In this document: in pieces, positions 2,529-23,650 of the stretch
Position numbering within the stretch: position 1 is the stretch's first letter
How the letters are laid out: each line of letters opens with the position of its first letter
Source of the DNA: an uncultured Lachnospiraceae bacterium
Lineage (GTDB): Bacteria; Bacillota; Clostridia; Lachnospirales; Lachnospiraceae
Assembly: GCA_947650005.1 (NCBI GenBank)
Contig: CANSTU010000016.1
Coordinates: forward strand, 1-52,511
DNA length: 52,511 nucleotides
Direction: 5' to 3'
The notes under the pieces: model-generated
What the model saw: only the letters and a program-made list of their open reading frames with translations
What the model was told of the DNA's origin: nothing
Database searches by the model: none
Translations under genes and position numbers: made by a program

Positions 2529-2538
2529 GAAAAGGCCA

Positions 2539-4042: not shown

Positions 4043-4051
4043 CTATTGGCT

Positions 4052-6846: not shown

Positions 6847-6885
6847 TCTTACATTAATACAGACAATTTAAATAAAGGCGGCCAG

Positions 6886-7134
6886 TTGGAGAACATTATC
6901 CAAAAGACAGTCCAAGGCACTGTGGAACTTACTCCTGTCCGGGATATGACCAACGAGCAGTTAAAGAAAATTATTCAGGAAATCAAGGTAAACAAGGACG
7001 GAAACGCAAATATTTACCTGCGTTTGTTCGGAGATTTCGGTTTAGATGTAAACGTTTTAATTTGTGACGACGAAACATATAGACTTTTTGAACGTCCGAT
7101 AAAACGGCTGATGGGAGTAGGAAGAAAACGATGA
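6886..7134 (+). CDS. Small protein of unknown function, TTG start, coupled to hsdM
   Basis: 82 residues with no domain recognised. The start is a TTG preceded by AAAGG at 7 nt, and no in-frame ATG exists near the beginning. The stop overlaps the hsdM start (ATGA), so translational coupling is likely. The sequence has an amphipathic region (MTNEQLKKIIQEIKVNK) followed by a strand-rich part with NIYLRLFGDFGLDVNVLIC. It could be a small regulator of the RM genes, or the C-terminal remnant of a longer protein such as a recombinase whose 5' part is gone. The tight coupling argues for a gene that is really translated. Confidence 0.55.
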   Translation: MENIIQKTVQGTVELTPVRDMTNEQLKKIIQEIKVNKDGNANIYLRLFGDFGLDVNVLICDDETYRLFERPIKRLMGVGRKR

Positions 7135-8594
7135 TTACAGGCTCGTTAAAAAACCAAATCGACAAAATATGGGATGACATGTATTCCTATGGGATTGCGA
7201 ATCCCTTGGTGGTGATTGAACAGCTTACCTATCTGTTTTTCATTAAATCTTTGGACGATGTTGAGACTGTGAATGAAAAAAGGGATGCCATGCTGGGCGT
7301 CTTTAGCGAACGCATCTTTCCGCAGGATGAGGAGGGACAGAAGCTTCGATGGAGTAAGTTTTGTAACCTGAAGGCGGAGGAAATATTTGATACGCTTAAT
7401 ACAAGGGTATTTCCGTTTATCAAAAAGCTGAAAACCGGCAAAAAGAGTGCGTATGCCCGTTATATGAAAGATGCTGCCTTTGCCCTGCCGAATGCATTGA
7501 TTACGGAAAAAGTGGTTACCGCCATCTCCGCGCTTCCGCTGAACGACCGCGATCTGAAAGGCGATCTGTATGAGTATATGATTTCCAAGCTGCAGTCCGC
7601 CGGCCGTATCGGGCAGTTCCGCACGCCGAGACACATCATTCAAATGATGGTACGTTTGATGGATCCCCAAATTACGGACTCCATTGTGGATCCGGCATGC
7701 GGAACGGGCGGCTTCCTTGTGGTTTCCGGGCAATACGTCCGTGAGCATAACGAGAAGACATTGCGTCTCGATAAGAAGGCGCTGGCACATTATCAGAACA
7801 CGATGTTCACCGGGTACGATACCGACCAGACCATGCTGCGCATTACCGCGATGAACACGACGCTTCACGGTATGGATAATGCGGATATTCGTTTCAACGA
7901 TTCGCTTTCAAAGAGCAATATGGACGAGGATAAATTTACGCTTGTGCTTGCGAACCCGCCCTTTAAGGGATCATTGGACGCAGATGCCATATCTACGAGC
8001 CTGACGAATGTCGTAAAGACGACCAAAACGGAATTATTGTTCCTGGCATTATTCCTCAGAATGCTGGATGCCGGCGGCCGCTGTGCATGTATCGTGCCTG
8101 ACGGCGTTTTGTTCGGGTCATCAAAGGCACATATAGCGATCCGCAGGGAGCTGATCGATAAGAATATACTTCAGGCAGTGCTTTCCATGCCTTCAGGTGT
8201 GTTTAAACCATACGCGGGAGTATCCACGGCTGTCCTGATTTTCACCAAAACAGGAACCGGCGGAACAGATCATGTTTGGTTTTACGATATGAAGTCCGAC
8301 GGATTCAGCCTGGATGATAAGCGGGAAGACCTGGGCGATGGCGGCGATATTGAGGATATCGTGGAACGTTTCCATCATCTGGATGCGGAATTAAGCCGTG
8401 AGCGCTCGGAGCAGAGTTTTATGATTCCTGCGGAGGAGATAAGAAAGAACAACTACGATCTTTCCATAAACAAATATAAAAAGATAGAGTATACGGCAAA
8501 GAAATATGCTCCCTCTTACGAGATCATGTCGGAGCTTTCCCATTTATATGAGGAGTTGGGGAAGGCGCTTTCGGAATTGGAGGGGCGATTATGA
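7131..8594 (+). CDS. hsdM: Type I restriction-modification system, N6-adenine methyltransferase subunit
   Basis: 487-residue modification subunit that methylates adenine in the bipartite site chosen by HsdS. AdoMet-binding motif I, DPACGTGGF, lies at residues 187-195, and catalytic motif IV, NPPF, at 275-278. The N-terminal region is the helical HsdM N domain that contacts HsdS. Length is normal. It overlaps the small upstream gene and hsdS by 4 nt each (ATGA in both cases), giving a coupled operon. Within the HsdM2-HsdS core it methylates host DNA; with HsdR the complex cuts unmodified DNA. All key motifs are intact, so activity is expected. Confidence 0.95.
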   Translation: MITGSLKNQIDKIWDDMYSYGIANPLVVIEQLTYLFFIKSLDDVETVNEKRDAMLGVFSERIFPQDEEGQKLRWSKFCNLKAEEIFDTLNTRVFPFIKKLKTGKKSAYARYMKDAAFALPNALITEKVVTAISALPLNDRDLKGDLYEYMISKLQSAGRIGQFRTPRHIIQMMVRLMDPQITDSIVDPACGTGGFLVVSGQYVREHNEKTLRLDKKALAHYQNTMFTGYDTDQTMLRITAMNTTLHGMDNADIRFNDSLSKSNMDEDKFTLVLANPPFKGSLDADAISTSLTNVVKTTKTELLFLALFLRMLDAGGRCACIVPDGVLFGSSKAHIAIRRELIDKNILQAVLSMPSGVFKPYAGVSTAVLIFTKTGTGGTDHVWFYDMKSDGFSLDDKREDLGDGGDIEDIVERFHHLDAELSRERSEQSFMIPAEEIRKNNYDLSINKYKKIEYTAKKYAPSYEIMSELSHLYEELGKALSELEGRL

Positions 8595-9733
8595 GGAAAT
8601 ATGCATTCACTGACTGCGTTGATCTTGTGGGATCCGCGGTTGGTAAATTTGAGGGGATGAAAAAATATGTAAGTACAGGAGCTTTAGATTACGATCGGAT
8701 TGACTTTTCTCAAGTAGAGGATGTGGATTACGAGAGTAAACCATCTCGTGCGAATTTATCGGTAAATGCAGGAGATATTCTGTTTGCCAAAATGCAAGGC
8801 ACAAAAAAGACGCTAGTATTAGATCTCAAGACGCAGGAATATGTGTACTCGACGGGCTTCTGCGCAGTTAGGGCGAAGGAAAATATAATTAATCGTCGTT
8901 GCCTTTATCACCTTATTACAGGCAAAGATTTTCTTGCCCAGAAGGATAAGAATTGTTCAGGCGCAACGCAAAGGGCAATAACCAATAAAGGCCTTGAAAA
9001 AATTGTTGTTTCCATTCCAAAGATAAGCGAACAGAAAGAGATTGCAAAACGCCTTGATCTTGCTGATGGAGCAGCCTTGAAATGCCAGCAGATTTTAAGA
9101 AAATTGGATGAACTGGTCAGAGCGCGGTTTGTGGAGATGTTTGGCGATCCTATAGAAAACCCTATGGGATGGGATAAGTCCCCTTTGGGGAAACGCTGTA
9201 ATATTATTACTGGCAACACACCGCCTCGGGCGGATGCCGAGAATTATGGGACTTTTCTTGAATGGATAAAATCCGACAATATCAATACCCCGGATACATA
9301 TCTTACGGTTGCAGAAGAATATTTATCCCAAAAAGGGTTTGAGAAATGCAGGTATGTTGAGTCAGGAAGCGTGTTAATGACCTGTATAGCGGGCAGTATC
9401 GGATGCATTGGAAATGTTGCCGTTGCTGACAGGCGCGTAGCATTCAATCAACAGATTAATGCCATTGTCCCATCAAATGACGAAACATTGTATATTTTTT
9501 GGCTCATGCAGCTGTCGAAGCCATATATTCAAAGCATGATCAATATGGCTTTAAAAGGTATTCTGAGTAAGGGGCAGTTATCTGCTTTGGAGTTTCCTTT
9601 TCCTCCGCTGCCAAGACAGACAGAGTTTGCTAACTTCGTCCGGGACATGGACAAATCGAAATTGGCTGCAAAAAAATGCCTTGAAAAAGCCGAATATCTC
9701 AAAGACGCATTGATGCAGGAATATTTTGGATAA
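8591..9733 (+). CDS. hsdS: Type I restriction-modification system, specificity subunit
   Basis: 380 residues with two target-recognition regions (about 1-150 and 190-340), each followed by a conserved helical spacer: KISEQKEIAKRLDLADG, then LRKLDELVRARFVEMFGDP, and PPLPRQTEFANFVRDMDKSK near the C-terminus. This is the normal two-TRD layout that reads a bipartite DNA site. Codon use in the TRDs is more AT-rich than in hsdM, as expected when TRDs are exchanged. A single complete hsdS is present, with no inverted partial copies or invertase nearby, so phase-variable shuffling is not indicated here. Confidence 0.93.
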   Translation: MRKYAFTDCVDLVGSAVGKFEGMKKYVSTGALDYDRIDFSQVEDVDYESKPSRANLSVNAGDILFAKMQGTKKTLVLDLKTQEYVYSTGFCAVRAKENIINRRCLYHLITGKDFLAQKDKNCSGATQRAITNKGLEKIVVSIPKISEQKEIAKRLDLADGAALKCQQILRKLDELVRARFVEMFGDPIENPMGWDKSPLGKRCNIITGNTPPRADAENYGTFLEWIKSDNINTPDTYLTVAEEYLSQKGFEKCRYVESGSVLMTCIAGSIGCIGNVAVADRRVAFNQQINAIVPSNDETLYIFWLMQLSKPYIQSMINMALKGILSKGQLSALEFPFPPLPRQTEFANFVRDMDKSKLAAKKCLEKAEYLKDALMQEYFG

Positions 9734-9763
9734 CTTCGGCGACACAGGAAAGGAGGCGGCTGC

Positions 9764-12700
9764 ATGACGAACTTTGATTTTCTGCTAAAAGAAAGCCGGT
9801 TTGAGGCGTTTGCGGATGCTTGTATTGAGGCCGAGCGTTCGATGGTAATAAGCCCGGCTCTATGCGCTTTCGGCGTACGCAAAAGTGCGGAACTTGCGGT
9901 AAAGTGGCTCTATTCTATAGACCCGTCTTTACGCACGCCCTACAGGGGCAATTTCTCCGCATTGGTCTTTAACCCAACATTTACGGACTCTGTGGACGAG
10001 GATATTTTGAATCGCCTTCGATTCATCATCAAGCTGGGGAATTTTGCCGCCCACACGGGTCGGCAGGTCACCTACAGGGAAGCAGCGCTGGCGCTCTCCA
10101 ACCTTTTCGACTTTGTCCTGTTTATCGATTACTGCTACGGTTCGAACTACGAAGAGCGGATCTTTGATGAGTCGCTTTTGGCAGCCAATCAGAATCAGAG
10201 CGTTTCTGCAAAGGAATTTGAAAAGCGCAAGGCCGAGCTGGATGTGCGTTCCAAGGAACGTGAGGAGATGGCCGAAGAGGTGAAAAAGCTCCGCGGCGAG
10301 ATGGCGGCCATGCGTCATGAAAATCAGCGGAAGCGTAATTATTCCATAGACCGCAGGAGCGAGGCGGATACCCGAAAGAGCATCATCGATGTGGATATCA
10401 AGTCGATGGGATGGGTATTCAAAAAGGACTGCAGGGAGGAGTATCCTGTTGTCGGAATGCCGAATGACTCCGGTACGGGAAGCGTGGACTATGTCCTTCT
10501 CGGAGACAACGGGAAGCCTCTCGCCGTCGTGGAAGCAAAGCGGACCGCGGTTGATCCGAAGGTCGGCCAGCATCAGGCGTACTTATATGCGGATTGCCTG
10601 GAACAGATGACCGGCCAACGCCCGCTGATTTTCTATACAAACGGTTATACCACATGGCTTTGGGACGATACCAACTATCCGGAGCGGAAGGTATATTCTG
10701 TATTTTCTAAGCAGGATCTGCAGCGGATCGTTGACCGCAGGAAGCTTGCAAAGGAGTTTGGCCAGCTTAACATTAATCCGGACATTACGGACCGGGATTA
10801 TCAGAAAATTGCCATACAGCGTGTATGCGGAGAATTTTCAAAGAAACGCAGGAAAGCGCTCCTTGTCATGGCTACGGGAACCGGAAAGACCAGGACGGCC
10901 GTGTCCCTTGTGGATGTGCTGTCCGACCACCGTTTTATCACCAATATTCTCTTTCTGGCGGATCGGAAGGAACTGGTGAAGCAGGCGAAAGAAGCTTTTG
11001 CCAAACATATGCCGCATCTGTCCACCTGCAACCTGGCCGCCCGCGGTGATGATAAACCTACGGACCGGGCCATTTTCTCAACATATCCTGCGATTATGAA
11101 TGCCATCAATGAGGAGAAGACGCAGGACGGTCTGAAGCTGTTTACGCCAGGCCATTTTGATCTGATCATCATTGACGAGGCACACCGGAGTATTTTTAAA
11201 AAATACCGGGCCATTTTTGAATACTTCGATGCGCTTCTTGTGGGCTTGACCGCCACGCCAAAGAGCGACGTCGGGCATAATACCTATGAATTTTTCGATC
11301 TCGAAGAAGACATGCCGACTTATGCTTATGAGTACGATCAGGCGTTGAAAGAGAAGCATCTGGCGGATTATCATTGCATAGAAAAGCTGTATAAAATTCC
11401 GACCCAGGGACTGCATTATGACGATTTGACGCCGGAGCAGAAACAGGCCTATGAGGAGGCTTTTGAAGAAGAGGACGAAATGCCAGAGTTTATCAGCGGA
11501 CCGTCCGTTGATCGTATTTATTTCAATGAAGACACGACCAGAAAGATCCTTACGGAATTGATGGAGAAAGGGCTCAAGGTGGAGGGCGGCGATAAGCTCA
11601 GTAAAACCATCATTTTTGCCCGCCAGCATAGCCATGCCCAATTTATAGAGAAGCAGTTTAATATCCTATATCCGCAATACGGCGGCAAATTTGCCAGGGT
11701 GATCGATCATCGGGAAAAATATCATGAGGATCTTTTGAGGGCTTTCAAGGACAAGAACCGCTATCCACAGATCGCGATATCCGTGGATATGCTGGATACC
11801 GGTATCGATGTGCCGGAAATTCTGAATCTCGTGTTCTATAAACAGGTATTTTCAAAGTCCAAATTCTGGCAGATGTTCGGGCGGGGCACCCGCCTCTGCG
11901 CGGATCTGTTCGGGGCAGGTGAGGATAAGACGGAATTTTATATTTTTGATTATCTGGGGAATTTCGTATTTTTTGAACAAAATCCGAAGGGAAAAGATCC
12001 GGCTGCCCCCGTTTCACTGTCCGAAAGAATTTTTTCGCTGAAGGTACGTATCGTCAGGGAATTACAGGACTTAAAATTTCAGACAGAGGAGTTGATTCCA
12101 TTTAGAGAAGCGATGGTGTCGGAATTGGCAAATTCCATAGCTAAGCTGAATACAGAGCAGTTCCAGGTGCGTCAGAACCTCGCCTATGTGGAAAGATATG
12201 CAAAGGCCGAAGCCTTCCAGGCACTCGGCCTTGTCGAGACGGAAACCATGATAGCGCACCTGGCCGGACTGATCCCTCCGGTAGATGAAAACGAAGCGGC
12301 AAAGCGTCTCGACGTGCTGATGTTCTGCATGATGCTTGCCAGAGCGGAGGGGAACGATCAGTCCTATCGGACGACGACAAGAAAAGTGCAAAAAGTCGCG
12401 GTGAGCCTTTCCCAAAAGGGAACCATACCGGAGATTCGGGAAGCGAAGCAGACGCTGGATAAAATACGGACGGATGGATTCTGGCTGTCTGCCGCGATCC
12501 CGGAAATCGATGCGGTCAGGGAGGAAATCCGCGGCCTGATGCACTTCCTGAAAAAAGAAATAAAGACCAAGGTCATAAATATTACGGATGATGTCCTGTT
12601 TGAACGGGAAGGCGAACGGTTCACCGCTGAGAATGATTTGGAAGGCTACTATGAGCGGGCGGCCCGGTATGTGATGGAAAACGAGGACAATCCCGTCCTT

Positions 12701-13111
12701 TACAGGCTGAAAAATAATATTCCGCTCACGAAGGGAGACTGGGATGACCTGGAACGGATTTTCTGGCAGGAAGTCGGAACTGCCGATGAATATAAAACAG
12801 CGACTCGGGAGGAAGTCCCGTTGGGAAAGTTTGTCCGCAGTCTGACCGGGCTGTCTCCTGAAGCCGCTCATGACGCGTTCTCGGAATTTCTGGATGAAGC
12901 GTTGTTTAGCGAGCCTCAGATTCATTTCGTGAGATGTATCATGGATTGGATGATCGAATATGGCACGCTCGATAAGGAAAACCTGAGCGACAATGAATTT
13001 GCCGGAGGTGCGGATATTGTAGAGATATTTGGCGATGATATCGCAGGCTTCCAGAAGATTATGGCTGTTGTGGCGAGCATCAATCAGAACGCGATGAAGG
13101 AGGCCGCATAA
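9764..13111 (+). CDS. hsdR: Type I restriction endonuclease subunit R
   Basis: 1115-residue translocase-nuclease that pumps DNA and cuts remote from unmethylated sites. Domain order: a DUF4145-like N-terminus (1-120), a short coiled coil (about 150-200, KREEMAEEVKKLRGEMAAMRHE type), a PD-(D/E)xK nuclease (D242, then E257-A-K259 in VVEAK), a superfamily 2 helicase with Walker A ATGTGKT near 370-376, DEAH at 471-474, LTATP, and motif VI QMFGRGTRLC, then a helical C-terminus contacting HsdM/S. The ATG follows AAGGAGG at 7 nt and lies 30 nt after hsdS. All catalytic motifs are intact. The DUF4145 fusion places it in the EcoEI-like group. Confidence 0.95.
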   Translation: MTNFDFLLKESRFEAFADACIEAERSMVISPALCAFGVRKSAELAVKWLYSIDPSLRTPYRGNFSALVFNPTFTDSVDEDILNRLRFIIKLGNFAAHTGRQVTYREAALALSNLFDFVLFIDYCYGSNYEERIFDESLLAANQNQSVSAKEFEKRKAELDVRSKEREEMAEEVKKLRGEMAAMRHENQRKRNYSIDRRSEADTRKSIIDVDIKSMGWVFKKDCREEYPVVGMPNDSGTGSVDYVLLGDNGKPLAVVEAKRTAVDPKVGQHQAYLYADCLEQMTGQRPLIFYTNGYTTWLWDDTNYPERKVYSVFSKQDLQRIVDRRKLAKEFGQLNINPDITDRDYQKIAIQRVCGEFSKKRRKALLVMATGTGKTRTAVSLVDVLSDHRFITNILFLADRKELVKQAKEAFAKHMPHLSTCNLAARGDDKPTDRAIFSTYPAIMNAINEEKTQDGLKLFTPGHFDLIIIDEAHRSIFKKYRAIFEYFDALLVGLTATPKSDVGHNTYEFFDLEEDMPTYAYEYDQALKEKHLADYHCIEKLYKIPTQGLHYDDLTPEQKQAYEEAFEEEDEMPEFISGPSVDRIYFNEDTTRKILTELMEKGLKVEGGDKLSKTIIFARQHSHAQFIEKQFNILYPQYGGKFARVIDHREKYHEDLLRAFKDKNRYPQIAISVDMLDTGIDVPEILNLVFYKQVFSKSKFWQMFGRGTRLCADLFGAGEDKTEFYIFDYLGNFVFFEQNPKGKDPAAPVSLSERIFSLKVRIVRELQDLKFQTEELIPFREAMVSELANSIAKLNTEQFQVRQNLAYVERYAKAEAFQALGLVETETMIAHLAGLIPPVDENEAAKRLDVLMFCMMLARAEGNDQSYRTTTRKVQKVAVSLSQKGTIPEIREAKQTLDKIRTDGFWLSAAIPEIDAVREEIRGLMHFLKKEIKTKVINITDDVLFEREGERFTAENDLEGYYERAARYVMENEDNPVLYRLKNNIPLTKGDWDDLERIFWQEVGTADEYKTATREEVPLGKFVRSLTGLSPEAAHDAFSEFLDEALFSEPQIHFVRCIMDWMIEYGTLDKENLSDNEFAGGADIVEIFGDDIAGFQKIMAVVASINQNAMKEAA

Positions 13112-13144
13112 AAAACGCCTCCCTGGATTTTACCCATATAAGTC

Positions 13145-13173
13145 TTGCAAGCGAAAGATACAATGTGTACAAT
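13145..13173 (+). promoter_or_regulatory. Promoter of the five-gene SWIM-MoxR-vWA cassette
   Basis: TTGCAA (13145-13150) and TACAAT (13168-13173) are 17 nt apart, about 38 nt before the chosen SWIM start. It lies between the hsdR stop and the SWIM gene, so the cassette can be transcribed separately from the RM operon. Confidence 0.65.
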
Positions 13174-13210
13174 CATCATAGAAAGAAAAACGAGAGGCAG
13201 GGATCGATTT

Positions 13211-14713
13211 ATGCGGCAGATCACCGAAGCGCAGATCCTGGCGCTGGCGCCCAATCCAGCGGCGGCAGGAAATGGGAAAAAGATTTCACAGAAAGGAGGA
13301 TTCGTACGGCTGGAACGGTCTGCGGACGAATCCTTTTATCTGGGAGAGTGCCAGGGGAGCGGAAAAAGCAACTATATTACCACGGCGGATTTTATCGAAC
13401 CAGACGCGCCGGTATTCCGCTGTTCCTGCCCCAGCAGGCAGTTTCCATGTAAACACAGTTTGGCGCTGCTCTATGAGATGATGGCGCAGAAAGCCTTTCA
13501 AACCTGTGAAATCCCGGAGGATATTTTGAAAAAGCGGGAGAAAAAACAGGCCAAGGCTGCCAAAAGCAGGGAAGCGGAGGCGGAAGGCGGCCAGGACAAT
13601 TCCGGAGAAAACGCGGCTGGCGGCGAAGGAGTTTCAAAGGAAGGGGGAGCGAAGGGAAAGAAGGCCTCGTCGGCGGGAAAGGCGGCCAGGACGCGGAAGA
13701 GGAAGAAGCAGCTGGAAGGGTTGGATCTGGCTGAACGGATGCTCGGGGAGCTGATGGCCGCCGGTTTGGGCGCCATGGGAGGGACGGCGCTTGCCTCCTA
13801 TCGTCAGCTTTCCAAACAGCTGGGGGATTATTACCTGCCAGGGCCGCAGCGCATTCTGAACCGCCTGATCCTTGAAATGGAAGCCAGCCAGAAAGATCAG
13901 GAGGAATTCCACTATGATAATGCGTTGGAGGAGCTGGAGAAGCTTCGGGCGCTGATAAAAAAATCCCGTCTGTATTTACGTGAAAAGGTGGAAAACGGGG
14001 AGGACGGGCCGGACAACAGCCCGCTTTATGAGGAGCTGGGGGGCGTCTGGAGGCTGTCTGAGCTGGAGGAGGCTGGAAATTGCAGCAGGGATGTGCGTCT
14101 TGTACAGCTTTCCTTCCATGTGGAATATGATGAGGCGAGGCGTGAATACATAGATATAGGATGCTGGGCTGACGTATCCAGTGGGGAGATCAGCCTGACC
14201 TGTAATTACAGGCCGGTGAAGGCGCTGAAGTATGTGAAGAGTGAGGACAGCATCTTCGGTGCGGCACAGGTGGGGGCGGCGATGCGTTATCCCGGGGAGG
14301 GAAACCGCAGGATACGCTGGGACCATGCGGCTATTACGCAGGTGACAAAGGAGGATCGGAGGGCGCTGCGTGCCTTGGCGTCCCGTTCCGTCGCTGCAGA
14401 AGCGAAGGCGGCGAAGAATCTGCTAAAGGATGCGCTTGCAGATCCAGTCTATTATCGCCTGATCGCCTTTGAACGGATCGGACGGACGGACGCAGGCCTG
14501 GTGCTGCAGGATGAAAAGAAGGATACCATCCTGCTGGGGGATTTCCTGGAAAAGGAGCGGACAACGGATCGGCTCGCTCTCTTGCCGGACGGGAGATTCC
14601 TGGAGGGGCAGGTGCTTTTGGGCGGTTTTTATTATGATAGAAAGGCGAGGCGTCTTATGCTCTGGCCACACAGTATTGTGGCGGAGGAAGGGATCATACG
14701 GCTGTTGTATTGA
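13211..14713 (+). CDS. SWIM zinc finger protein (first gene of MoxR-vWA cassette)
   Basis: About 500 residues. A canonical SWIM zinc finger (CxC-x6-CxH) lies at C71, C73, C80 and H82, in CSCPSRQFPCKH. SWIM fingers bind DNA or proteins. Residues about 110-180 form a low-complexity linker rich in Lys, Ala, Glu and Gly, probably disordered. The remaining C-terminal part is not recognised. Starts at a TTG (13145) or ATG (13163) are possible, but these overlap the promoter. The ATG at 13211 after GAGGCAGGG begins MRQITEAQILALAPN, the usual SWIM protein start. It is the first of five same-strand genes and probably acts as an adaptor recognising the target. Confidence 0.85.
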   Translation: MRQITEAQILALAPNPAAAGNGKKISQKGGFVRLERSADESFYLGECQGSGKSNYITTADFIEPDAPVFRCSCPSRQFPCKHSLALLYEMMAQKAFQTCEIPEDILKKREKKQAKAAKSREAEAEGGQDNSGENAAGGEGVSKEGGAKGKKASSAGKAARTRKRKKQLEGLDLAERMLGELMAAGLGAMGGTALASYRQLSKQLGDYYLPGPQRILNRLILEMEASQKDQEEFHYDNALEELEKLRALIKKSRLYLREKVENGEDGPDNSPLYEELGGVWRLSELEEAGNCSRDVRLVQLSFHVEYDEARREYIDIGCWADVSSGEISLTCNYRPVKALKYVKSEDSIFGAAQVGAAMRYPGEGNRRIRWDHAAITQVTKEDRRALRALASRSVAAEAKAAKNLLKDALADPVYYRLIAFERIGRTDAGLVLQDEKKDTILLGDFLEKERTTDRLALLPDGRFLEGQVLLGGFYYDRKARRLMLWPHSIVAEEGIIRLLY

Positions 14714-14765
14714 CCATGATGTGGACGCGTCGCAGGTAAAGCTTGCGATATGCAGGGAGATAGCT

Positions 14766-16697
14766 ATGGATATATCACCAGTATATGAACTGAGGGAACG
14801 GCTCAAGGCGGGAGCCATTGCAGGAACTGGGCTGCTTGCGGAGGATTTCCGGCTGAAAAGGGCTATTGACGGGATGGCTCCCCTGGAAAAGGCTTCCCCG
14901 GTCTTTGCCAGGATTACGCAGCTCGCCAGGCAGTCGGTGGAAGAGGCGTGTGAGGATCGGGCCGGAGCCCTGCTGGATGCGCTTACCTTAACGGACGCCC
15001 TGTTATGTACCCAGGGCGCGGTGGGCGTGGAAGGCGAGATCAGGCCGCTTTCGAAGGAGCGCCGAAAGATGGAGGAGACGGATGCCCTGATGGCGGAGGT
15101 TCCCTATTCCGTGCTTTCCGCGCTTCTGGATGCGCTGTGCCATTCTGGAAACGGAAGGTACGGCTATGTGGTGGAACTGCGTGGGGAACAGCCTGCGCTT
15201 TTTGGGGATTACCGCGTGCAGGCGGCTATGGTGGATGGGCTGGGAGCCTCCTATGCGGAATTGGCGGAGTCGGTGACGGGATGGCTGATCGAGGACGGAC
15301 GGAAGAGCCATGGCGGCTGCGGCATTCTTTCCCTGCTTCAGAAAGGGTTTGACGGAAAGGGAAAGAAGGAGATGGTGCGCCGGGTCTGGGTGATGGAGGC
15401 TATAGCCGGGCAGGCGGCCAATTCCTTCTATGTGGAGCAGCTGCCGCAAGCGGAAAAAGAGGTGCGGGGCGCGCTGATCTATGCGCTGCGCCACTGCCAG
15501 GAAAATGAGGGGCTTTTGCTGGAGCTGGTTCGGAAGGAACGGGGAAACAACCGGAAGATGGCGTGTTATGCCCTAGCCGAAATGGGCGGTAAGGGAGCCT
15601 GGGACTATTTTCGTACCCTCGTGGCTAAGAAGCCGGAGGAAGCGATGGAATATCTGGAGCAGTCAGAACGGCCGGAGGCCGCCGGACTGGCGGCGGAAAT
15701 TCTGATGCGGCTGCTGAGTGGCCTGAAGGAGAGCGGGAAAAAGCCGGAAAAAGAGGAAGCGGCCCTGCTGACGTTATGTTTGCGTTCACTTCCGGGAAAG
15801 AGCGGGGAGGAGATCTGCGCCTGTTATCGACAGGCAGCTTCCTTTGGGAGCGCGTTGGATGGTTCGGTTGAGGGAAAACAGGAAAAGCTGCTTTTCGTTC
15901 CGCCCAATCGGAATTTCAGAGAGGGCGTCCCGTTTAGCCGGATGATCCCAGCCCTGCTCCAGCATGGTCTGCTTGTGCATCCTGCTAAGGAATTGGCCGA
16001 TGTGGCGCAGGAGCTGTACGCGTCCTATGGAGAGGCCTATTTTCCGGCGGCTATGACCGCCTGCCTGCTCACCAAAACAGGCGGCGAGTGTCTGGATTTC
16101 CTGAAAGGATTTGTGGAGAAAAAAGGCCTTTTAGGGAAACGGCTGATGCGGGACCGCGCCCCCTTTGTGGAGCAGGCATTCGCACCCGTGCGCGTGGATG
16201 AGAGGACGGGGGAGTATAGGGCTATCGCCGTTTCCCTGCATCCTGCCAGACAACGGCCCGAAAATCATGTCCGTCCGGTCACTGCGGTGATTCCTGAAAT
16301 GTATGAGGTGCTGATGGATCTGGAAAGCCGGGGAACGGATCAGGTTCTTTTTTCCTGGATTCGGACATCGGATCGGGAAATGTGCGGCCGGCTGGCGGCG
16401 TATTTTCACGGCCGGGCCCTGAAAACAGGGGATAACCGGCTCTACCTGGATCCGCTGCGGCGCTGCGGCGCCGAGGACTGCCGCGGCCTGGCGGTCGCCT
16501 ATTTCAGGGCAAAGGGGAAAGTTGCCAGCTGGGAGATCCTGTATTATCTGAATCAGCTGCCCGGTAGCGCGGCCTCCAGGGAGGCGGAAGCCAGGAGCGT
16601 GCTCAATCTGCTCAAAAGAGGGGATATCAAAACCGCGAACAACGCGATCCCCGTCCTGGAAACGTTTATAAAAGAACAGTTTGCAGGGAAAGCGTGA
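14766..16697 (+). CDS. HEAT-repeat-like protein of the MoxR-vWA cassette
   Basis: About 643 residues, almost wholly alpha-helical with repeated hydrophobic helix pairs. Examples are VRGALIYALRHCQENEGLL and MACYALAEMGGKGAWDYF, as in HEAT/ARM scaffolds. There are no transmembrane segments and no catalytic motif is seen. The ATG at 14766 has AGGGAG upstream; the open frame continues upstream to 14469 only as an overlap with the SWIM gene. It lies 52 nt after the SWIM gene and 80 nt before the MoxR gene. Its place suggests a scaffold linking the SWIM protein to the ATPase, but the function is inferred only from gene order. Confidence 0.75.
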   Translation: MDISPVYELRERLKAGAIAGTGLLAEDFRLKRAIDGMAPLEKASPVFARITQLARQSVEEACEDRAGALLDALTLTDALLCTQGAVGVEGEIRPLSKERRKMEETDALMAEVPYSVLSALLDALCHSGNGRYGYVVELRGEQPALFGDYRVQAAMVDGLGASYAELAESVTGWLIEDGRKSHGGCGILSLLQKGFDGKGKKEMVRRVWVMEAIAGQAANSFYVEQLPQAEKEVRGALIYALRHCQENEGLLLELVRKERGNNRKMACYALAEMGGKGAWDYFRTLVAKKPEEAMEYLEQSERPEAAGLAAEILMRLLSGLKESGKKPEKEEAALLTLCLRSLPGKSGEEICACYRQAASFGSALDGSVEGKQEKLLFVPPNRNFREGVPFSRMIPALLQHGLLVHPAKELADVAQELYASYGEAYFPAAMTACLLTKTGGECLDFLKGFVEKKGLLGKRLMRDRAPFVEQAFAPVRVDERTGEYRAIAVSLHPARQRPENHVRPVTAVIPEMYEVLMDLESRGTDQVLFSWIRTSDREMCGRLAAYFHGRALKTGDNRLYLDPLRRCGAEDCRGLAVAYFRAKGKVASWEILYYLNQLPGSAASREAEARSVLNLLKRGDIKTANNAIPVLETFIKEQFAGKA

Positions 16698-16698
16698 A

Positions 16699-16726
16699 AA
16701 AACCCGCTCCCCCAAAGCGGCGTTTT
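16699..16726 (+). terminator. Intra-operon hairpin, possible attenuator
   Basis: AAAAC-C-CCGCT pairs with AGCGG-C-GTTTT across a short loop, directly after the HEAT gene stop, and ends in TTTT. It could lower transcription of the MoxR, DUF5682 and vWA genes relative to SWIM and HEAT, or protect a processed 3' end. Confidence 0.4.
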
Positions 16727-16777
16727 CTCGCACAGGTGTTTTTGGGGATTGCGAAGTGTAGAAACGGAGAGGTAGAG

Positions 16778-17866
16778 ATGGAACAGACGAATGTACAGAG
16801 ACTGCCGGCGGAGCAGCTTTTTGCAAAAGAGATTGAGGCATTGATCGCAGCGGAGACGGATCCCATCCCCACGGGATGGAGGATGTCTCCCCGGTCGGTG
16901 CGGACTTATATCTGCGGAGGCAGGGCAGGGGAGATGGAAATTACGCCCAAATATATCGGCCAGGAACGGCTGGTGGAAATCGCCATCGCCACGCTGGTGA
17001 CGGATCGGGCGCTCCTTCTGATCGGGGAGCCCGGAACGGCCAAAAGCTGGCTTTCGGAGCATTTAACGGCGGCCATTAACGGGGATTCCACCCGGGTGAT
17101 CCAGGGAACAGCGGGAACTACGGAGGAACAGATCCGTTACTCCTGGAATTATGCCATGCTGATCTCCCAGGGGCCTTCCCTGTCCGCCATGCTCAAAAGT
17201 CCTGTGCTGTCCGCCATGGAGACTGGCACCATCGCCCGGGTGGAGGAGATCTCCCGCTGCGCCAGCGAGGTACAGGACGCGCTGATTTCGATCCTATCCG
17301 AAAAAAGGATCTCCGTTCCGGAGCTGGGAATGGAGGTTCCCGCACAAAAGGGATTTTCTGTGATCGCCACGGCAAATACACGAGATAAAGGGGTGAACGA
17401 AATGTCCGCGGCCCTGAAACGCCGCTTTAATATCGTGGTACTTCCTGCGCCTGCGGATCTGGAGGCGGAGATGGAAATCGTGCGCACCCGGGTGGAACAG
17501 CAGGCGGCAAGCCTGGATTTGAACGCCAGGCTGCCGGAACGGGAAGTGGTGGAGAGAGTATGTACCATTTTCCGGGAGCTGCGCAGCGGGGAAACCCTGG
17601 ATCGCAGCCAAAAGGTGAAAGCCACAACAGGCGTGTTGTCCACTGCGGAAGCCATTTCCCTGCTGTGCAACAGCATGGCTTTGGCTGGGAGCTTCGGAAA
17701 CGGCATCATTACGGATCACGACCTAGCGGCCGGACTGCAGGGCGCGGTGGTGAAGGAAGAGGAGAAGGATGGCCTGGCCTGGAAGGAATATCTGGATCAT
17801 ATTATGAAAAAGAGGGGATCCGCCTGGGCGGGATTATACCGGGCCTGTAAGGAGCTGAACGAATGA
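16778..17866 (+). CDS. MoxR-family AAA+ ATPase
   Basis: 362-residue MoxR-type AAA+ ATPase. Walker A is GEPGTAKS (83-90). The Walker B region is diverged (TIARVEEISR near 151-160, where FxDE is usual, still with paired acids). Sensor 1 is ATANTRDKG (197-205) and an ALKRRF arginine-finger region is near 212-217. MoxR ATPases work with vWA-domain partners as chaperone-like machines that remodel or activate a target. One such partner is encoded two genes downstream. The ATG at 16778 has GGAGAGG at 5 nt; the extra upstream codons overlap the hairpin. The stop overlaps the next start (ATGA), so it is coupled to the DUF5682 gene. Confidence 0.92.
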   Translation: MEQTNVQRLPAEQLFAKEIEALIAAETDPIPTGWRMSPRSVRTYICGGRAGEMEITPKYIGQERLVEIAIATLVTDRALLLIGEPGTAKSWLSEHLTAAINGDSTRVIQGTAGTTEEQIRYSWNYAMLISQGPSLSAMLKSPVLSAMETGTIARVEEISRCASEVQDALISILSEKRISVPELGMEVPAQKGFSVIATANTRDKGVNEMSAALKRRFNIVVLPAPADLEAEMEIVRTRVEQQAASLDLNARLPEREVVERVCTIFRELRSGETLDRSQKVKATTGVLSTAEAISLLCNSMALAGSFGNGIITDHDLAAGLQGAVVKEEEKDGLAWKEYLDHIMKKRGSAWAGLYRACKELNE

Positions 17867-20127
17867 GAAGGGAACCTTTCTTTTTTGGAATCAGGCATCT
17901 TTCTCCGGCGGGGGCCTGGCATCTGCGGCATTTTCTGGAGGAAAAACGCCCCCGTCTGGTGCTGGTGGAAGGGCCTTGCGATCTGGGAGACGAGATGAAC
18001 CATATGTGCGATCCCAGGACCCGGGCTCCCTTTGCGGTGCTATCTTATACCCAAGAGACGCCTGTGCGCACGCTCCTATATCCTTTTTCTGAATATTCCC
18101 CGGAGTATCAGGCGGTTTTATGGTGCGCGCAAAATGCGTCCGAGTGCCGGTTCATGGATCTGCCCAGCGATGTATTCCTGGCGCTTCCCTCCGTCCACAG
18201 GGCGGAGGAAGGGGAAGAGGGACGATTGGGCGTCTATCGGGCATTGGATGAGCGTCTCGGCGGGGACGGACATGAAACCTTCTGGGAACGCACGCTGGAA
18301 CAGGCGGAAACGGCGGAGGGGTATCATCAGGGAGCCAATCTGTTCGGGAAAAGCCTGCGGGATCTGACGCAGGAAAAGGATGAGGACTGGGAAGAAATCC
18401 TGCTGCGTGAGGCTTGGATGCGCAGGCAGATCAGGGAGGCCGTTTCGTCAGGAATCCTACCGGAAGAAATGGTGGTGGTGACCGGGGCGTACCATGTGGA
18501 GGGCTTGAGGAACTGGGAGGAAGCGCCTTCGAAGGAAGAGACAAAGGCGCTGGACGGCCTGCCGCGGACAGAAGCCAGCCATACGCTGATGCCCTATTCC
18601 GATTATCGTCTCTCCTCCCGTTCCGGTTACGGTGCTGGCAATAAGGCGCCCGCCTATTACGGGCTAATCTGGGAGGCTTTGCGCGCAGGGGAACCCATGC
18701 GGGCGGCCTATGGCTATTTGGCCAGGATCGCCGGCTACCAGAGGGGGCATGGTTCTCCCGTGTCTTCGGCTGAAGTGATCGAAGGGGTGCGCTTGGCCTG
18801 TGAGCTGGCAAGGCTGCGGGGCGGGCAGGTTCCGGCGCTTCGGGATCTGCGGGACGCGGCGACAACCTGCCTAGGAGGCGGCAGCATGGCTGCCATCAGC
18901 CTGGCGGTTGCGGATACGGAGATCGGAACCGGCATCGGCAGCCTCCCGGAAGGCGTGAGCCGAACCAGTATCCAGGAAGATTTCTACCGTCAGATGAAGG
19001 AACTGAAGCTGGAAAAATACCGGGATATCGCGGCGCAGGATCTGTCCCTGGATCTGCGGGAAAACCGGAACGTGAAATCCGAAAAATCGGCTTTCCTGGA
19101 TCTGAGCCGTTCTTTTTTCCTTCATCGGCTGCGCGTGCTGGGGGTGCATTTTGCCACGGTAAAGGACAATAGGCAGGAGAACGCAACCTGGGCGGAGCAA
19201 TGGGTGGCCCGTTGGACGCCGGAAGCGGAAATCGAACTGGTGGAGTCGGCGCTAAAGGGGGATACCATCATCCAGGCCGCTTCCTTTGCCATGAAAGAGC
19301 GCGCGGAGGGAGCCGGGGACATGGGCGGAATCGCTCAAGTGATTGAAGATGCTTTCCTGTGCGGTATGGCGGCAGCGGCCGGGTATGCCACGGATATCCT
19401 GGCAGGTAAGGCGGTGGATGCGGTTTCTATTTTGGAGCTGGCAGGGACTGCGGAACGGCTTTCCCTGGTCATCCGCTATGGGAGCATCCGGCGGGTGGAC
19501 GAAAAACCTCTGGAGCCGATCCTTGTCCGGATTTTTTACCGCGCCTGCCTTCTGTTGCCCGGCGCCTGTTCCTGCGATGAATCCGCGACGGACGGGATGG
19601 TCACGGCCATGGATCAGCTGAACAAGGCGGCGCTGGCCCATGAGTTCCTGGATACGCAGGAGTGGATTACGGCGCTTTCCCAAACGGCGCAGAGGGATGA
19701 TCTGAATACCAAGTTGTCCGGGTTTGCGGCCGCCATCCTGTTGGAGAGGGGCTTGATGGACGCCAAGCAGCTGCAGCAGGAAGTGAGCCGCAGGCTGTCC
19801 GCAGGGACGCCGGCGGATCTAGGGGCCGGATGGTTTGAAGGGCTGGCCATGAAAAACCGATATGCCCTGATCGCCAGGCTGTCTTTGTGGGAAAGCCTGG
19901 ATGCCTACCTGGATGCGCTGGACGATGAGGAGTTTAAGCGGGCGCTGGTGTTCCTGCGCCGGGCCTTTTCGGACTTTTCCGCCAGGGAGAAGGATGAAAT
20001 CGCAGAAAATCTGGGCGAGCTGTGGGGATTGAACGCCGCGGCGGTCAGTGAAGCCGTGAATGCGCCCTTGGAGTCGTCGTCGGAAGAGCTGATAGAAAGC
20101 CTGGAAGAGTTCGACTTTGATCTTTGA
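17863..20127 (+). CDS. DUF5682 family protein
   Basis: 754 residues, matching the DUF5682 family found beside MoxR, SWIM and vWA genes. The N-terminal third has spaced motifs, FGIRHLSPAG (about 6-15), LVLVEGPCD (about 26-34) and VVVTGAYHVEGL (about 205-216). These resemble the Gx(x)H, E-x-P and GAxH motifs of the TraB/ChaN/EreA (Tiki-like) hydrolase superfamily, so a metal-dependent or esterase-like activity is possible; this is inference. The remaining two thirds are helical and rich in Ala, Leu and Glu. There is no signal peptide. It overlaps the MoxR stop by 4 nt. In a conflict system it would be the effector or the ATPase substrate. Confidence 0.85.
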   Translation: MRREPFFFGIRHLSPAGAWHLRHFLEEKRPRLVLVEGPCDLGDEMNHMCDPRTRAPFAVLSYTQETPVRTLLYPFSEYSPEYQAVLWCAQNASECRFMDLPSDVFLALPSVHRAEEGEEGRLGVYRALDERLGGDGHETFWERTLEQAETAEGYHQGANLFGKSLRDLTQEKDEDWEEILLREAWMRRQIREAVSSGILPEEMVVVTGAYHVEGLRNWEEAPSKEETKALDGLPRTEASHTLMPYSDYRLSSRSGYGAGNKAPAYYGLIWEALRAGEPMRAAYGYLARIAGYQRGHGSPVSSAEVIEGVRLACELARLRGGQVPALRDLRDAATTCLGGGSMAAISLAVADTEIGTGIGSLPEGVSRTSIQEDFYRQMKELKLEKYRDIAAQDLSLDLRENRNVKSEKSAFLDLSRSFFLHRLRVLGVHFATVKDNRQENATWAEQWVARWTPEAEIELVESALKGDTIIQAASFAMKERAEGAGDMGGIAQVIEDAFLCGMAAAAGYATDILAGKAVDAVSILELAGTAERLSLVIRYGSIRRVDEKPLEPILVRIFYRACLLLPGACSCDESATDGMVTAMDQLNKAALAHEFLDTQEWITALSQTAQRDDLNTKLSGFAAAILLERGLMDAKQLQQEVSRRLSAGTPADLGAGWFEGLAMKNRYALIARLSLWESLDAYLDALDDEEFKRALVFLRRAFSDFSAREKDEIAENLGELWGLNAAAVSEAVNAPLESSSEELIESLEEFDFDL

Positions 20128-20207
20128 CGGGAGAAAGCGGGCAGATGGGATGAAGCTTGGAAGTAAACTTCCAAACTTTCTATTGGCGGCATATCGCAAG
20201 CTTTGCT

Positions 20208-20284
20208 TGCGCTGCTGTGGGGGTATAAGATTGAAAATTTTAATTTTCAATCTCCCTGATTTGTATGTCCGCTAAAGCGGGCAG
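20208..20284 (+). repeat. Two-hairpin leader repeat, single copy before the vWA gene
   Basis: Order: GGGGGTATAAG, a hairpin with 11-nt arms (GATTGAAAATT and AATTTTCAATC around TT), CTCCCTGATTTGTATG, a second hairpin (CCGCT-AA-AGCGG), then GCAGATGGG next to the start codon. The same order recurs before the sulfatase gene at 41828. Related two-hairpin units occur before genes at 45767 and 49679. The rest of the DUF5682-vWA gap (20128-20207) holds two more small hairpins (GGAAGT/ACTTCC and CGCAAGC/GCTTGCG). Confidence 0.7.
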
Positions 20285-20296
20285 ATGGGTGTAAAA

Positions 20297-21481
20297 ATGG
20301 AAGAAAAAGACAAGATTCGCAGATGGCGGCTTATTTTGGGATTGGAGAGCCAGAATCGATTTGGGCAGATGGGGGATACTGGGCTCACGCAGGAACAGGA
20401 TCTGATGGATCGGGCGCTGGCCGCCATCTATAATCGGACGGAGAGCGGAGGATTTGCATCTTTTGGTTCCGGCGCAGGACAGGGCCCCTCCAACCCGCAG
20501 ATCACCCGTTGGCTGGGAGACGTGCGCAGCCTGTTCGGGCAGGATCTGGTCACGGTGATCCAGGCGGACGCGGTGAACCGGTGCGGGTTGAAACAGCTTC
20601 TGTTTGAGCCGGAACTTCTGGATCATCTGGAGCCGGATGTGAACTTGGCTGCCACGATCATGATCTTAAAGGAGCAGATACCGAAGCGCTCCAAGGAAAG
20701 CGTGCGCAGATTCATCCGGAAAATCGTGGAAGAGATTAACCGGCTTCTGGAACAGGATATCCGCAGGGCGGTGGCGGCCTCGATCAATAAAAGGAGGCAT
20801 TCTCCCATCCCTTCAGCGGCGGCGCTGGACTTTAAAACCACCATTGCCCGGAACCTGAAGAATTATAACCCCGCGCTGGGAACCATCGTTCCGGAACATT
20901 ATTATTTTTTTGACAGGACCAGCACTACGGCTGCCAACAAATGGACGGTAATCCTGGATATCGATCAGAGCGGATCCATGGGGCAGTCGGTGATCTATTC
21001 CTCCGTGATGAGCTGTATTCTGGCCAGCATGGCCAGCCTGCGCACCCGGGTGGTGGCCTTTGATACGAATATTGTGGATCTGACGGAGAAATGTGAGGAT
21101 CCGGTGGATCTATTGTTCGGATTTCAGCTGGGCGGCGGAACCAACATCGAACAGTCAGTGGCCTATTGTGAAAAGTACGTGGAAAACCCGGCGAAGACAT
21201 TGTTTTTCCTAATTTCCGACCTGGAGGAGGGAGGCAACCGGGCGGGCCTGCTGCGCCGTCTGGAAGAGATGAAGGGTTCCGGCGTGACTGTGATCTGTCT
21301 TTTGGCGCTGGCAGACGGGGGGAAACCCTATTACGACGGACAGATGGCCCAGCGGATTGCCGGGCTGGGAATTCCTTGTTTTGCCTGCAATCCTCAAATG
21401 CTGCCCCAGCTTCTGGAACGGGCCTTCTCCGGGCAGGATCTGGGTGCGTTTGCGAAGGAGTTTGAGAAGAGGAAAACTTAA
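20297..21481 (+). CDS. CoxE-like vWA domain protein, partner of MoxR ATPase
   Basis: 394 residues with a C-terminal von Willebrand A domain. The metal-ion site is DQSGSM (D223, S225, S227), followed by GGGTN near 286 and ISDLEEGG. The N-terminal half (to about 200) is a helical region seen in VWA_CoxE-type proteins that partner MoxR ATPases. It is probably cytosolic, binding Mg-dependent ligands and recruiting the ATPase to its target. An ATG at 20285 lies inside the leader repeat's conserved GCAGATGGG. The one at 20297 (MEEKDKIRR) keeps GGG at ribosome-site distance and is preferred. The 170-nt gap from DUF5682, with hairpins, is the loosest joint of the cassette. Confidence 0.9.
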   Translation: MEEKDKIRRWRLILGLESQNRFGQMGDTGLTQEQDLMDRALAAIYNRTESGGFASFGSGAGQGPSNPQITRWLGDVRSLFGQDLVTVIQADAVNRCGLKQLLFEPELLDHLEPDVNLAATIMILKEQIPKRSKESVRRFIRKIVEEINRLLEQDIRRAVAASINKRRHSPIPSAAALDFKTTIARNLKNYNPALGTIVPEHYYFFDRTSTTAANKWTVILDIDQSGSMGQSVIYSSVMSCILASMASLRTRVVAFDTNIVDLTEKCEDPVDLLFGFQLGGGTNIEQSVAYCEKYVENPAKTLFFLISDLEEGGNRAGLLRRLEEMKGSGVTVICLLALADGGKPYYDGQMAQRIAGLGIPCFACNPQMLPQLLERAFSGQDLGAFAKEFEKRKT

Positions 21482-21829
21482 AATTTTTAACCGTCTGTAG
21501 AGCCTGGCTACCGTTTTTACTTTCAAGCCATTGGCATTTTGGGTTTGGGCGATCAGGCGATAGGGTTCTGTCAGCTTATTCAGGAGGTATTTTCCGTCTC
21601 TTTCGTCCACACATAGACGTGGCGTTGGAAAAGCGGATTCGGACTGACAGCTAGGAAATATTTTGGGCGGGAAAAGGTTTTGCACAGGTTCGAGCTCGCG
21701 TGTATCTGTGTGCATATATTATAAAGAAAAAGATGAAGGGGCTGTTGTGAAATGGTGAGGCCGTATGTCGAGGATCCGCCATGTTTGCGACAGCCTCTGC
21801 GCGCTCATGATATGCGGAGGAAACAGCCA
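21482..21829. other. Intergenic region, possible remnant of a minus-strand gene
   Basis: No gene is called. On the minus strand, 21616 down to 21482 reads a protein-like stretch with GKYLLNKLTEPYRLIAQTQ and VKTVARLYRRLKI, ending at the vWA stop. It has no matching start or terminator and may be a decayed gene or chance. On the plus strand, TTGCAC (21680) and TATATTATAAAG (about 21715) are AT-rich promoter-like words without good spacing. GGAGG before the S8 start is at 21816-21820. Confidence 0.3.
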
Positions 21830-23650
21830 ATGAATTCTCAGAAACTAGAGAACCTATTGAACTTGAGCCTGGAGTCCACGCAGGAGGAACGGGAGAAGTC
21901 CCGGATCCTGGAGGTGGGATTTGACAGAGAAGAGCGAAGCTGGGAACTGATCGTGAAATTCCATGGGGATATCAGCCGCCTGGCTGATGAAAACATCGGC
22001 GTGGAAGTACTCCTGGCAGGATATGCCATTGTAACCCTTCCGGAGAGCCTGATCCCGGCGCTCGTGGCCCTGGAGGAAATCGAGTTTGTGGAGAAACCCA
22101 AGGAACTGATTTATGATGTATATGCGGCGAAGGAACAGTCCTGTTTTCCTCCGTTGGGAGATTTTTCCGGCGGTTCGCAGATCGGGGAGCCAAGGGAAGG
22201 GGCCTTTTATCTTCCGGAGGGAGGGAGCGGGCGGGACGGTTTGACGGGACAGGGGTGTATCGTGGCCATATTTGATTCAGGGATTGACTATACGCTTCCC
22301 GATTTCCGCAACAGGTCGGGCAGCAGGATTCTCTATCTGTGGGATCAGTCCCTTACGCCGGATGTGGAGAGGGGGTTTTATCCGCCGGAGGGATTTACCA
22401 CCGGTGTAGAATTCGATAGGGAAGCCATCGATAGGGCTTTGGAGGCGCCGGATACGGAACGGTTTTCTCTGATCCCCAGTATAGACGGATCAGGGCACGG
22501 AACGGCGGTGGCTGCCATTGCAGCGGGGAGCAATACGGACGCACGCTATACCGGGGCGGCGCCCGGCGCCTGGCTGCTCATCGTTAAACTGGGGCAGGCG
22601 GGAGGCAGTCCTTATCCCAGAACCACTCAGTTGATGCGGGCCATGACCTATGCCTTGAATAAGGCCCAGGCATTGGGGATGCCTTTGGCGGTGAATTTAA
22701 GCTTTGGAAACAGCTACGGGGCCCATGATGGTTCTTCTCTGCTGGAACGGTTTCTGGACAATGCCTCGGAGGTGTGGAAGAATGTGATCTGTGTGGGCAG
22801 CGGGAATGAAGGGGCGGCTGCCGGCCATGCATCGGGGAAACTGACGGAGGGAATCAATCAGAGGATTGAGCTGGCTGTGGGAAATTTTGAATCCACCGTC
22901 AGCGTGCAGCTGTGGAAGAACTTTGCAGATACTTTCCGGGTGAGTTTGCAAACCCCTTCCGGGCGGGTGATTCCTGTTCTCACGGATCAGATCGGGCGGC
23001 AGGAAATCCGGACAGAGGATACGCAGATCCTGATATTTATCGGAGAGCCGGCGCCCTATTCCGTGAACCAGGAATTTTTCTTTGACCTGATACCGACAGG
23101 GGATTATATCGCGTCCGGGATCTGGTCTTTTTTGTTGGAGCCTGTCCATATTTTGACAGGGGAATATCAGATGTATCTGCCGGGACAGTCGGTGCGTTCC
23201 GCGGATACCCGTTTCTATGCGCCTACGCCTGAACTGACGCTGACGATTCCGTCCACGGCCGGAAAGGTAATTACGGTGGGCGCGATACAGGGGAATCTGG
23301 GTGCGTATGCAGACTTCTCGGGAAGGGGTGTGAGAGGGCAGGAGGAGCTGCCGGGATTTCCCAATACGAAGCCGGATCTGGCGGCGCCCGGCGTGAACAT
23401 TGTGGCGGCCAGGGCTGGTGGAGGATATGAACCGTATACGGGGACGTCTTTTGCCACGCCGCTCGTGACCGGGGCCGCAGCGCTCATGATGGAGTGGGGA
23501 GTTGTGAGGGGGAATGATGCTTATCTGTATGGGGAGAAGGTGAAGGCGTTTCTGCAGAGGGGGGCGAGGAGCGTGAGGGGAGAGGGGCGGTATCCGAATG
23601 ATCGGGTGGGGTATGGGGCGTTGTGTGTAGCCTCAAGCCTTCCGGTTTGA
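21830..23650 (+). CDS. S8 family serine protease, Csp-like
   Basis: 606-residue subtilisin-type protease. The triad is intact: Asp149 in VAIFDSGIDYT, His223 in GSGHGTAVAA and Ser540 in GTSFATPLVTGAA. A prodomain-like region precedes it (about 1-110), and there is a long insert between His and Ser. This matches clostridial Csp-type subtilases (CspA/B/C), which in spore formers process the germination protease SleC. No secretion signal is visible, as is common in this group. The ATG at 21830 has CGGAGG at 9 nt; earlier ATGs have none. Its role here, germination or something linked to the neighbouring cassette, is open. Its 3' end is partly duplicated at 25.4 kb. Confidence 0.9.
   Translation: MNSQKLENLLNLSLESTQEEREKSRILEVGFDREERSWELIVKFHGDISRLADENIGVEVLLAGYAIVTLPESLIPALVALEEIEFVEKPKELIYDVYAAKEQSCFPPLGDFSGGSQIGEPREGAFYLPEGGSGRDGLTGQGCIVAIFDSGIDYTLPDFRNRSGSRILYLWDQSLTPDVERGFYPPEGFTTGVEFDREAIDRALEAPDTERFSLIPSIDGSGHGTAVAAIAAGSNTDARYTGAAPGAWLLIVKLGQAGGSPYPRTTQLMRAMTYALNKAQALGMPLAVNLSFGNSYGAHDGSSLLERFLDNASEVWKNVICVGSGNEGAAAGHASGKLTEGINQRIELAVGNFESTVSVQLWKNFADTFRVSLQTPSGRVIPVLTDQIGRQEIRTEDTQILIFIGEPAPYSVNQEFFFDLIPTGDYIASGIWSFLLEPVHILTGEYQMYLPGQSVRSADTRFYAPTPELTLTIPSTAGKVITVGAIQGNLGAYADFSGRGVRGQEELPGFPNTKPDLAAPGVNIVAARAGGGYEPYTGTSFATPLVTGAAALMMEWGVVRGNDAYLYGEKVKAFLQRGARSVRGEGRYPNDRVGYGALCVASSLPV

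Follow-up and report, generated by a model that had tools for sequence, protein, structure and literature searches.

A five-gene MoxR-VWA operon of an uncultured Lachnospiraceae bacterium, related to Deinococcus ddrTUVWX and Escherichia coli yehLMPQ

The window analyzed in this study, a stretch of 52,511 nucleotides (nt) from an uncultured Lachnospiraceae bacterium (assembly GCA_947650005.1, contig CANSTU010000016.1, positions 1 to 52,511 of the forward strand), contains at positions 13211-21481 a cassette of five genes, which encode a SWIM zinc-finger protein, a HEAT-repeat protein, a MoxR AAA+ ATPase, a DUF5682 protein, and a CoxE-like VWA protein. Judged by sequence comparison, this cassette is an operon of the same kind as ddrTUVWX of Deinococcus and yehLMPQ of E. 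coli. A preliminary description of the locus had proposed an undescribed defence or stress machine; the operon already has a name in Deinococcus and a counterpart in E. coli, and the evidence points more to stress-response machinery than to anti-virus defence.

As had been described, all five genes are located on the plus strand, in the order SWIM (13211-14713, 500 amino acids, aa), HEAT (14766-16697, 643 aa, with an ATG at 14766), MoxR (16778-17866, 362 aa), DUF5682 (17863-20127, 754 aa), and VWA (20285-21481, 398 aa), and the ATGA overlap is confirmed by the MoxR end at 17866 and the DUF5682 start at 17863. The proposed promoter of the cassette fared less well. One weak promoter-like site precedes the SWIM gene (TTGCAA-17-TACAAT, 13145-13173), and such sites are no more common in the region 12900-22000 than in shuffled sequence (3 versus a mean of 3.8). 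The 157-nt plus-strand spacer between DUF5682 and VWA (20128-20284) lies outside the conserved unit and is a copy of a dispersed palindromic repeat with 88 matches in its own genome, partly in tandem, self and opposite-strand sub-matches being counted. The corresponding spacer of locus L036, from the same genus, is shorter and shows partial likeness to it.

Counterparts in Deinococcus and E. coli

The homology of the window proteins to ddrTUVWX was judged on the sequences of Deinococcus taeanensis TS293 (locus L156), whose operon bears this name in the species paper. Here and below, statements taken from the literature refer to excerpts of the respective papers, which include, apart from those cited individually, PMC2669436, PMC9510100, PMC8533742, PMC10910872, PMC4576408, PMC11039860, PMC6442406, PMC12409786, and PMC3589462. 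The two operons are alike in their gene order (SWIM, a slot protein, MoxR, DUF5682, and VWA), and four of the five proteins are homologous, with identities of 30% for SWIM (E 6e-20; the window protein is the counterpart of DdrT), 55% for MoxR, 29% for DUF5682 (E 5e-75), and 43% for VWA. D. taeanensis differs by an additional open reading frame (ORF) of 78 aa between ddrV and ddrW, reported in the species paper and present in the sequence compared here. In D. deserti, the ddrTUVWX genes (Deide_18730 to Deide_18690) are preceded by a radiation/desiccation response motif (RDRM) and are radiation-induced under IrrE/DdrO, four of the five being found in the excerpted part of the table of the most radiation-induced, IrrE-regulated genes (PMC5552922); the Deinococcus operon is also treated in PMC8072749. 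An RDRM-like site is located 21 nt ahead of the SWIM gene of D. taeanensis.

Four annotated plasmid records (Rhizobium, D. taeanensis, Methylosinus, and Hymenobacter) have DUF5691 in the slot that the HEAT protein fills in the window, and this gene stands ahead of the AAA and DUF5682 genes. What a SWIM profile matches differs among these records: it is the first gene for D. taeanensis and Methylosinus, the DUF5691 gene itself for Hymenobacter, and for Rhizobium a frame that overlaps an annotated hypothetical gene; in Methylosinus, the VWA stretch is divided among three ORFs. The terms DUF5682 and DUF5691 were not found in the literature searched.

The yehL-yehM-yehP-yehQ genes of E. coli K-12 represent a second form, whose MoxR (YehL), DUF5682 (YehM), and VWA (YehP) proteins are homologous to those of the window, with identities of 38, 25, and 35%, respectively. 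A SWIM protein, YehQ, is likewise present, but its gene stands last, a DUF4132 gene (yehI) is found nearby, no HEAT gene is called, and YehM occupies a separate branch of the DUF5682 tree. Of 5426 complete E. coli genomes, 5284 have a match to yehM, which covers 80% or more of the gene in 5166 of them; the places matched are chromosomal in 5289 cases and plasmid-borne in 2. Among 20 regions collected from the family Lachnospiraceae, 13 have the window's form and seven (L040-L046) have MoxR-DUF5682-VWA without matches to the SWIM and HEAT profiles. A yehQ-like gene is present in six of these seven, with weak matches (25-37 bits), and a yehI-like gene in four; a contig end cuts the seventh region. 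Loci L164-L167 of the phylum sample have the same appearance.

Upstream of yehL-yehQ and on the same strand lies yehF, which we take to be part of molR, and a LexA-like sequence CTG-N10-CAG begins 25 nt ahead of it; our guess is that yehF to yehQ may be co-transcribed. In published work, molR is listed as LexA-regulated, yehQ was among the mutated genes tested in butanol-tolerant strains, and yehP was 1.8-fold down in simulated microgravity.

Conservation and distribution of the operon

A contig scan returned at least 576 relatives, of which the best 80 were analyzed together with the window (81 loci), so the conservation counts apply to the window's nearest relatives and not to the whole family. 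All five genes are present in 65 of these loci; in each of the remaining 16, a contig end is no more than 220 bases away from the first cassette gene detected. The order SWIM-HEAT-MoxR-DUF5682-VWA, with HEAT runs counted once, is kept in 62 of the 65 complete loci; HEAT precedes SWIM in two of the exceptions, and VWA comes first in one. Because of this retention the arrangement is far beyond chance, and a conserved multi-gene MoxR-VWA unit is supported.

Identity to the window declines in the order MoxR, VWA, DUF5682, SWIM, and HEAT, the respective values being 91, 87, 75, 68, and 55% in L047 and 83, 78, 63, 57, and 36% in L069. The HEAT genes are doubled or tripled in seven of the 65 complete loci, successive copies being 43-79% identical. 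On these comparisons, the HEAT protein is the fast-evolving and sometimes duplicated part of the operon.

In the family, 21 of 200 sampled genomes have DUF5682; in the phylum, 8 of 398 sampled genomes have it above the curated cut-off and 11 at E <= 0.001. In a quick DUF5682 tree, two Desulfovibrio rows from metagenome-assembled genomes group with clostridial ones, suggestive of either transfer or a binning error. Matches were found in 36 of 72,556 plasmid records and in one of 50,697 phage records; the latter (MT835988.1, locus L160, an UNVERIFIED 14-kb fecal scaffold labelled Bacteriophage sp.) has MoxR, DUF5682, and VWA and is probably a bacterial contig. Operon-internal gaps of at least 400 nt occur in 12 of 94 loci, some with foreign-looking genes. 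By eye, the genes inserted into the operons of L066, L076, L077, L106, and L119 look PIN-, HsdR_N-, AAA-, or HEPN-like.

Features of the five proteins

The window MoxR protein matches the Pfam AAA_5 model over its cut-off (E 3.3e-37). The statement in the preliminary description that the MoxR and VWA motifs are intact stands for Walker A, sensor 1, and the arginine finger, which are kept across 95 MoxR rows, and for the MIDAS-type (metal ion-dependent adhesion site) motifs of the window VWA protein (DIDQSGSM, GGGTNIEQ, and LISDLEEGG, the commonest variants being taken from 93 rows). It has to be corrected for Walker B, which is non-canonical, reading x-E-E in all 95 rows, E. coli YehL among them. 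YehL represents one of seven MoxR subfamilies (PMC3893208), and a sequence comparison covering two of the seven places the window protein nearer to YehL (237 bits) than to RavA (23.5 bits). The E. coli RavA-ViaA system is thus alike in pairing MoxR with VWA but unlike in the low score of its MoxR component.

Residues 157-373 of the 398-residue VWA protein match the Pfam VWA_CoxE model over its cut-off (E 2.8e-43), with no other domain; a search of PDB gave no match at 0.001. This CoxE type raises the alternative of a metal- or cofactor-insertion chaperone similar to NorQD or CoxDE and devoted to one dedicated enzyme, a reading we regard as unlikely. To our knowledge, SWIM and HEAT parts do not belong to NorQD or CoxDE, which counts against it, as do the radiation induction in D. 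deserti and the lack of a recurrent metalloenzyme among the up to 30 flank clusters listed in a by-eye survey of 817 ORFs from 92 loci. Metal insertion by NorQD, for which CoxD is likewise cited, the naming of MolR for molybdate use, and the occurrence of yehM mutations, among others, in copper-exposed E. coli argue in its favor. Synteny with a metabolic pathway, which the preliminary description had named as an outcome speaking against its proposal, was not seen: the commonest flank cluster occurs in 10 of the 92 loci.

The SWIM protein of the window matches Pfam SWIM over the cut-off (E 5e-5), and the SWIM pattern is kept in 75 of 75 rows. A further reading, to which we assign little probability, is that the operon encodes a DNA-repair complex whose SWIM protein would bind DNA directly. 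In the window HEAT protein, HEAT_2 is under the Pfam cut-off (21.4 versus 27.7 bits, E 3.1e-4); it is found at E <= 0.01 in 29 of the 44 aligned HEAT sequences, the window included, with a best value of 4.2e-11.

The window DUF5682 protein matches PF18934 over the cut-off (E 2.2e-145), and its structural model (mean predicted local distance difference test score 86.6) predicts an alpha/beta N-terminal part followed by a C-terminal helical solenoid. A Foldseek search with the full-length model gave nothing at E <= 0.001, the matches being mostly helical solenoids; TraB and ChaN structures are absent from the matches listed, which carries no evidential weight. A sequence profile search of PDB gave a single match at 0.064. 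Among 46 relatives, TraB_PrgY_gumN was matched by four (best 0.0054) and ChaN/Tiki by three (best 6.4e-4), and the unrelated Psu was also matched by three (best 0.035); the window protein itself matched none of these three families. The family sequences thus hint weakly at the TraB/ChaN/Tiki superfamily.

Genomic neighbourhood and the defence hypothesis

The preliminary description had placed the cassette in a defence island. Upstream of it on the plus strand, and outside the unit, lie genes for an SLFN_AlbA_2 protein (5155-6846) and for a type I restriction-modification (RM) system, HsdM/HsdS/HsdR (7131-13111), both recognized by Pfam and PADLOC; a CspB-type subtilase with a prodomain (21752-23650, Pfam) adjoins the cassette on its other side. 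In L036, genes matching the window at 224-4888 and 21752-23650 directly surround the cassette, and SLFN, HsdM, HsdS, and HsdR probes found nothing at E <= 1e-5 in this or any of 93 loci, whose flank lengths differ. The RM system beside the cassette is particular to the window genome. Of the 93 loci probed, only L036 and L090 likewise have the subtilase next to the cassette, and the neighbours are otherwise diverse by eye. The SLFN/type I RM block (5155-13111) could represent an insertion in the window genome or a loss in L036; GC content is 0.40-0.49 over this block versus about 0.53-0.60 over the cassette.

Flanks were scanned with PADLOC at E <= 1e-15. The two nearest ORFs of at least 150 aa to the left and to the right of the cassette in 69 dereplicated loci gave 229 candidates, and 127 of these flank proteins were scanned. 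The window was removed as a near-copy of L090, and its own RM genes are outside the flank count. The controls were 119 proteins of 258 candidates from 18 stretches of 11 genomes, unmatched one to one with the loci and including two kinds of operon. With tallies giving members per family rather than proteins with any match, 12 families were recorded in the flanks (mad3 in 4; the ShosA, PDC-S70, RdrB, PsyrA, and QatD models 1 each) and 22 in the controls (mad3 in 6; DruE, PDC, BrxH, DpdJ, DrmA, and others 1 each). The five cassette proteins gave no significant PADLOC match, the best being MoxR versus mad8 at 0.0044. The predicted enrichment near known defence genes was not seen, and since L036 keeps both neighbours without the RM block, the argument from a defence island fails and was rejected.

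We consider it improbable that the operon is an anti-phage system, or a conflict system of another kind, akin to the MoxR-vWA ternary systems. The window shares the MoxR and VWA core with these systems, part of the MoxR protein scores above the cut-off of the bpMoxR Pfam model (31.1 versus 27 bits), RM genes adjoin the cassette in this genome, and a restriction enzyme is included in the radiation regulon of D. deserti; the patchy presence outside E. coli and the PIN-, HEPN-, HsdR_N-, and AAA-like genes in some operon gaps also fit a conflict role. The third component of ternary systems is VMAP, iSTAND, FtsH, or a beta-propeller (PMC7159879), none of which is among the Pfam matches of the five proteins, and SWIM and DUF5682 are absent from the text of that paper. 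Ternary systems also have variable C-terminal effector domains on the VWA protein, an extension that the window protein lacks; VWA ORFs outside E. coli (n = 96, partial ones included) have a median of 396 and a maximum of 479 aa, leaving no long effector extension. The near-universal presence in E. coli, the failure of all 12 pattern matches on viral contigs to encode a relative, the absence of the RM block from L036, and the PADLOC result likewise argue against a conflict role.

Evidence for and against a stress-response role

The reading to which we give an even chance is that of a stress-linked MoxR-VWA remodeller of the YehL type. Of the two roles offered in the preliminary description, that of a stress machine is plausible, and that of a defence machine finds no backing in the flanks. 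Besides the radiation regulon of D. deserti and the near-universal presence in E. coli, both of which favor it, a link to proteostasis was seen in the flank survey. ClpS is encoded right downstream of VWA in 8 of 92 loci (L056, L058, L059, L061, L062, L071, L089, and L119), followed by a ClpA-like gene in all eight and Aat in seven; these three are N-degron pathway genes. Hsp33 follows the cassette in three of the 92 loci, and Hsp20 occurs within 12 kb in three. One representative of each was confirmed by Pfam, the ClpA-like protein as a Clp-type ATPase, the name ClpA being assigned here. Altogether, 14 of the 92 loci have proteostasis neighbours, and L079 has in addition a distant Clp-like partial ORF on the opposite strand. 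The same five probes gave no match in 18 control regions, which comprise 360 kb compared with 912 kb of flanks.

A number of observations weigh against the stress-response reading or its supports. On the tree, a single origin fits each of three groups (Clp, Hsp33, and L091/L092), counted against other groups only, and the Clp and Hsp33 clades contain rows without the link; with clades counted, the proteostasis association is not significant. Given this clade pattern and the smaller amount of control DNA, the proteostasis link is suggestive only. With respect to Deinococcus, the window HEAT protein gives no sequence match to DUF5691 of D. taeanensis (BLAST E 6.2; hhalign, with a four-sequence profile, probability 0.3). 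The ddrTUVWX operon is reported as missing in D. radiodurans and D. geothermalis and is thus dispensable for radiation resistance. RDRM-like sites in D. taeanensis are at chance level (3 versus 1.8 expected), and only its position favors the one ahead of the SWIM gene. The window operon was tested for the same box of Deinococcus RDRM/DdrO control; the pattern occurs in the window 10 times versus 3.6 expected, none near the operon start, in which the window is unlike D. deserti.

The LexA evidence is similarly limited. No LexA-like box was found ahead of yehI, yehK, or yehL, and the yehK-yehL gap is 306 nt, so LexA control of yehL-yehQ does not follow from the site ahead of yehF. No LexA-type box precedes the window operon, the LexA core occurring once in the window, within the VWA gene, and among 77 type-A upstream regions boxes with at most two mismatches were found in six, four of them within the gene. 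Finally, the patchy presence of DUF5682 in the family and phylum samples fits a housekeeping role poorly.

Under the stress-response reading, MoxR would form an ATP-driven ring, and the VWA protein would couple this ring to a substrate. The HEAT and SWIM proteins may serve as adaptors facing clients or nucleic acid, and a protein complex, either DUF5682 or a client held by it, would be remodelled or activated during stress, for example upon DNA damage. A bolder version, which we think quite unlikely, is that DUF5682 is an intracellular metal-dependent hydrolase or protease of the Tiki/TraB fold, switched or loaded by MoxR-VWA after genotoxic or proteotoxic stress, that the HEAT proteins adapt it to clients and for this reason change rapidly and are duplicated, and that the same would apply to yehLMPQ and ddrTUVWX.

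What was supposed to be a new defence cassette thus belongs to a widespread family of operons for which a connection with a stress regulon has been published, and its near-universal counterpart in E. coli makes the function of the family testable in laboratory E. coli K-12.

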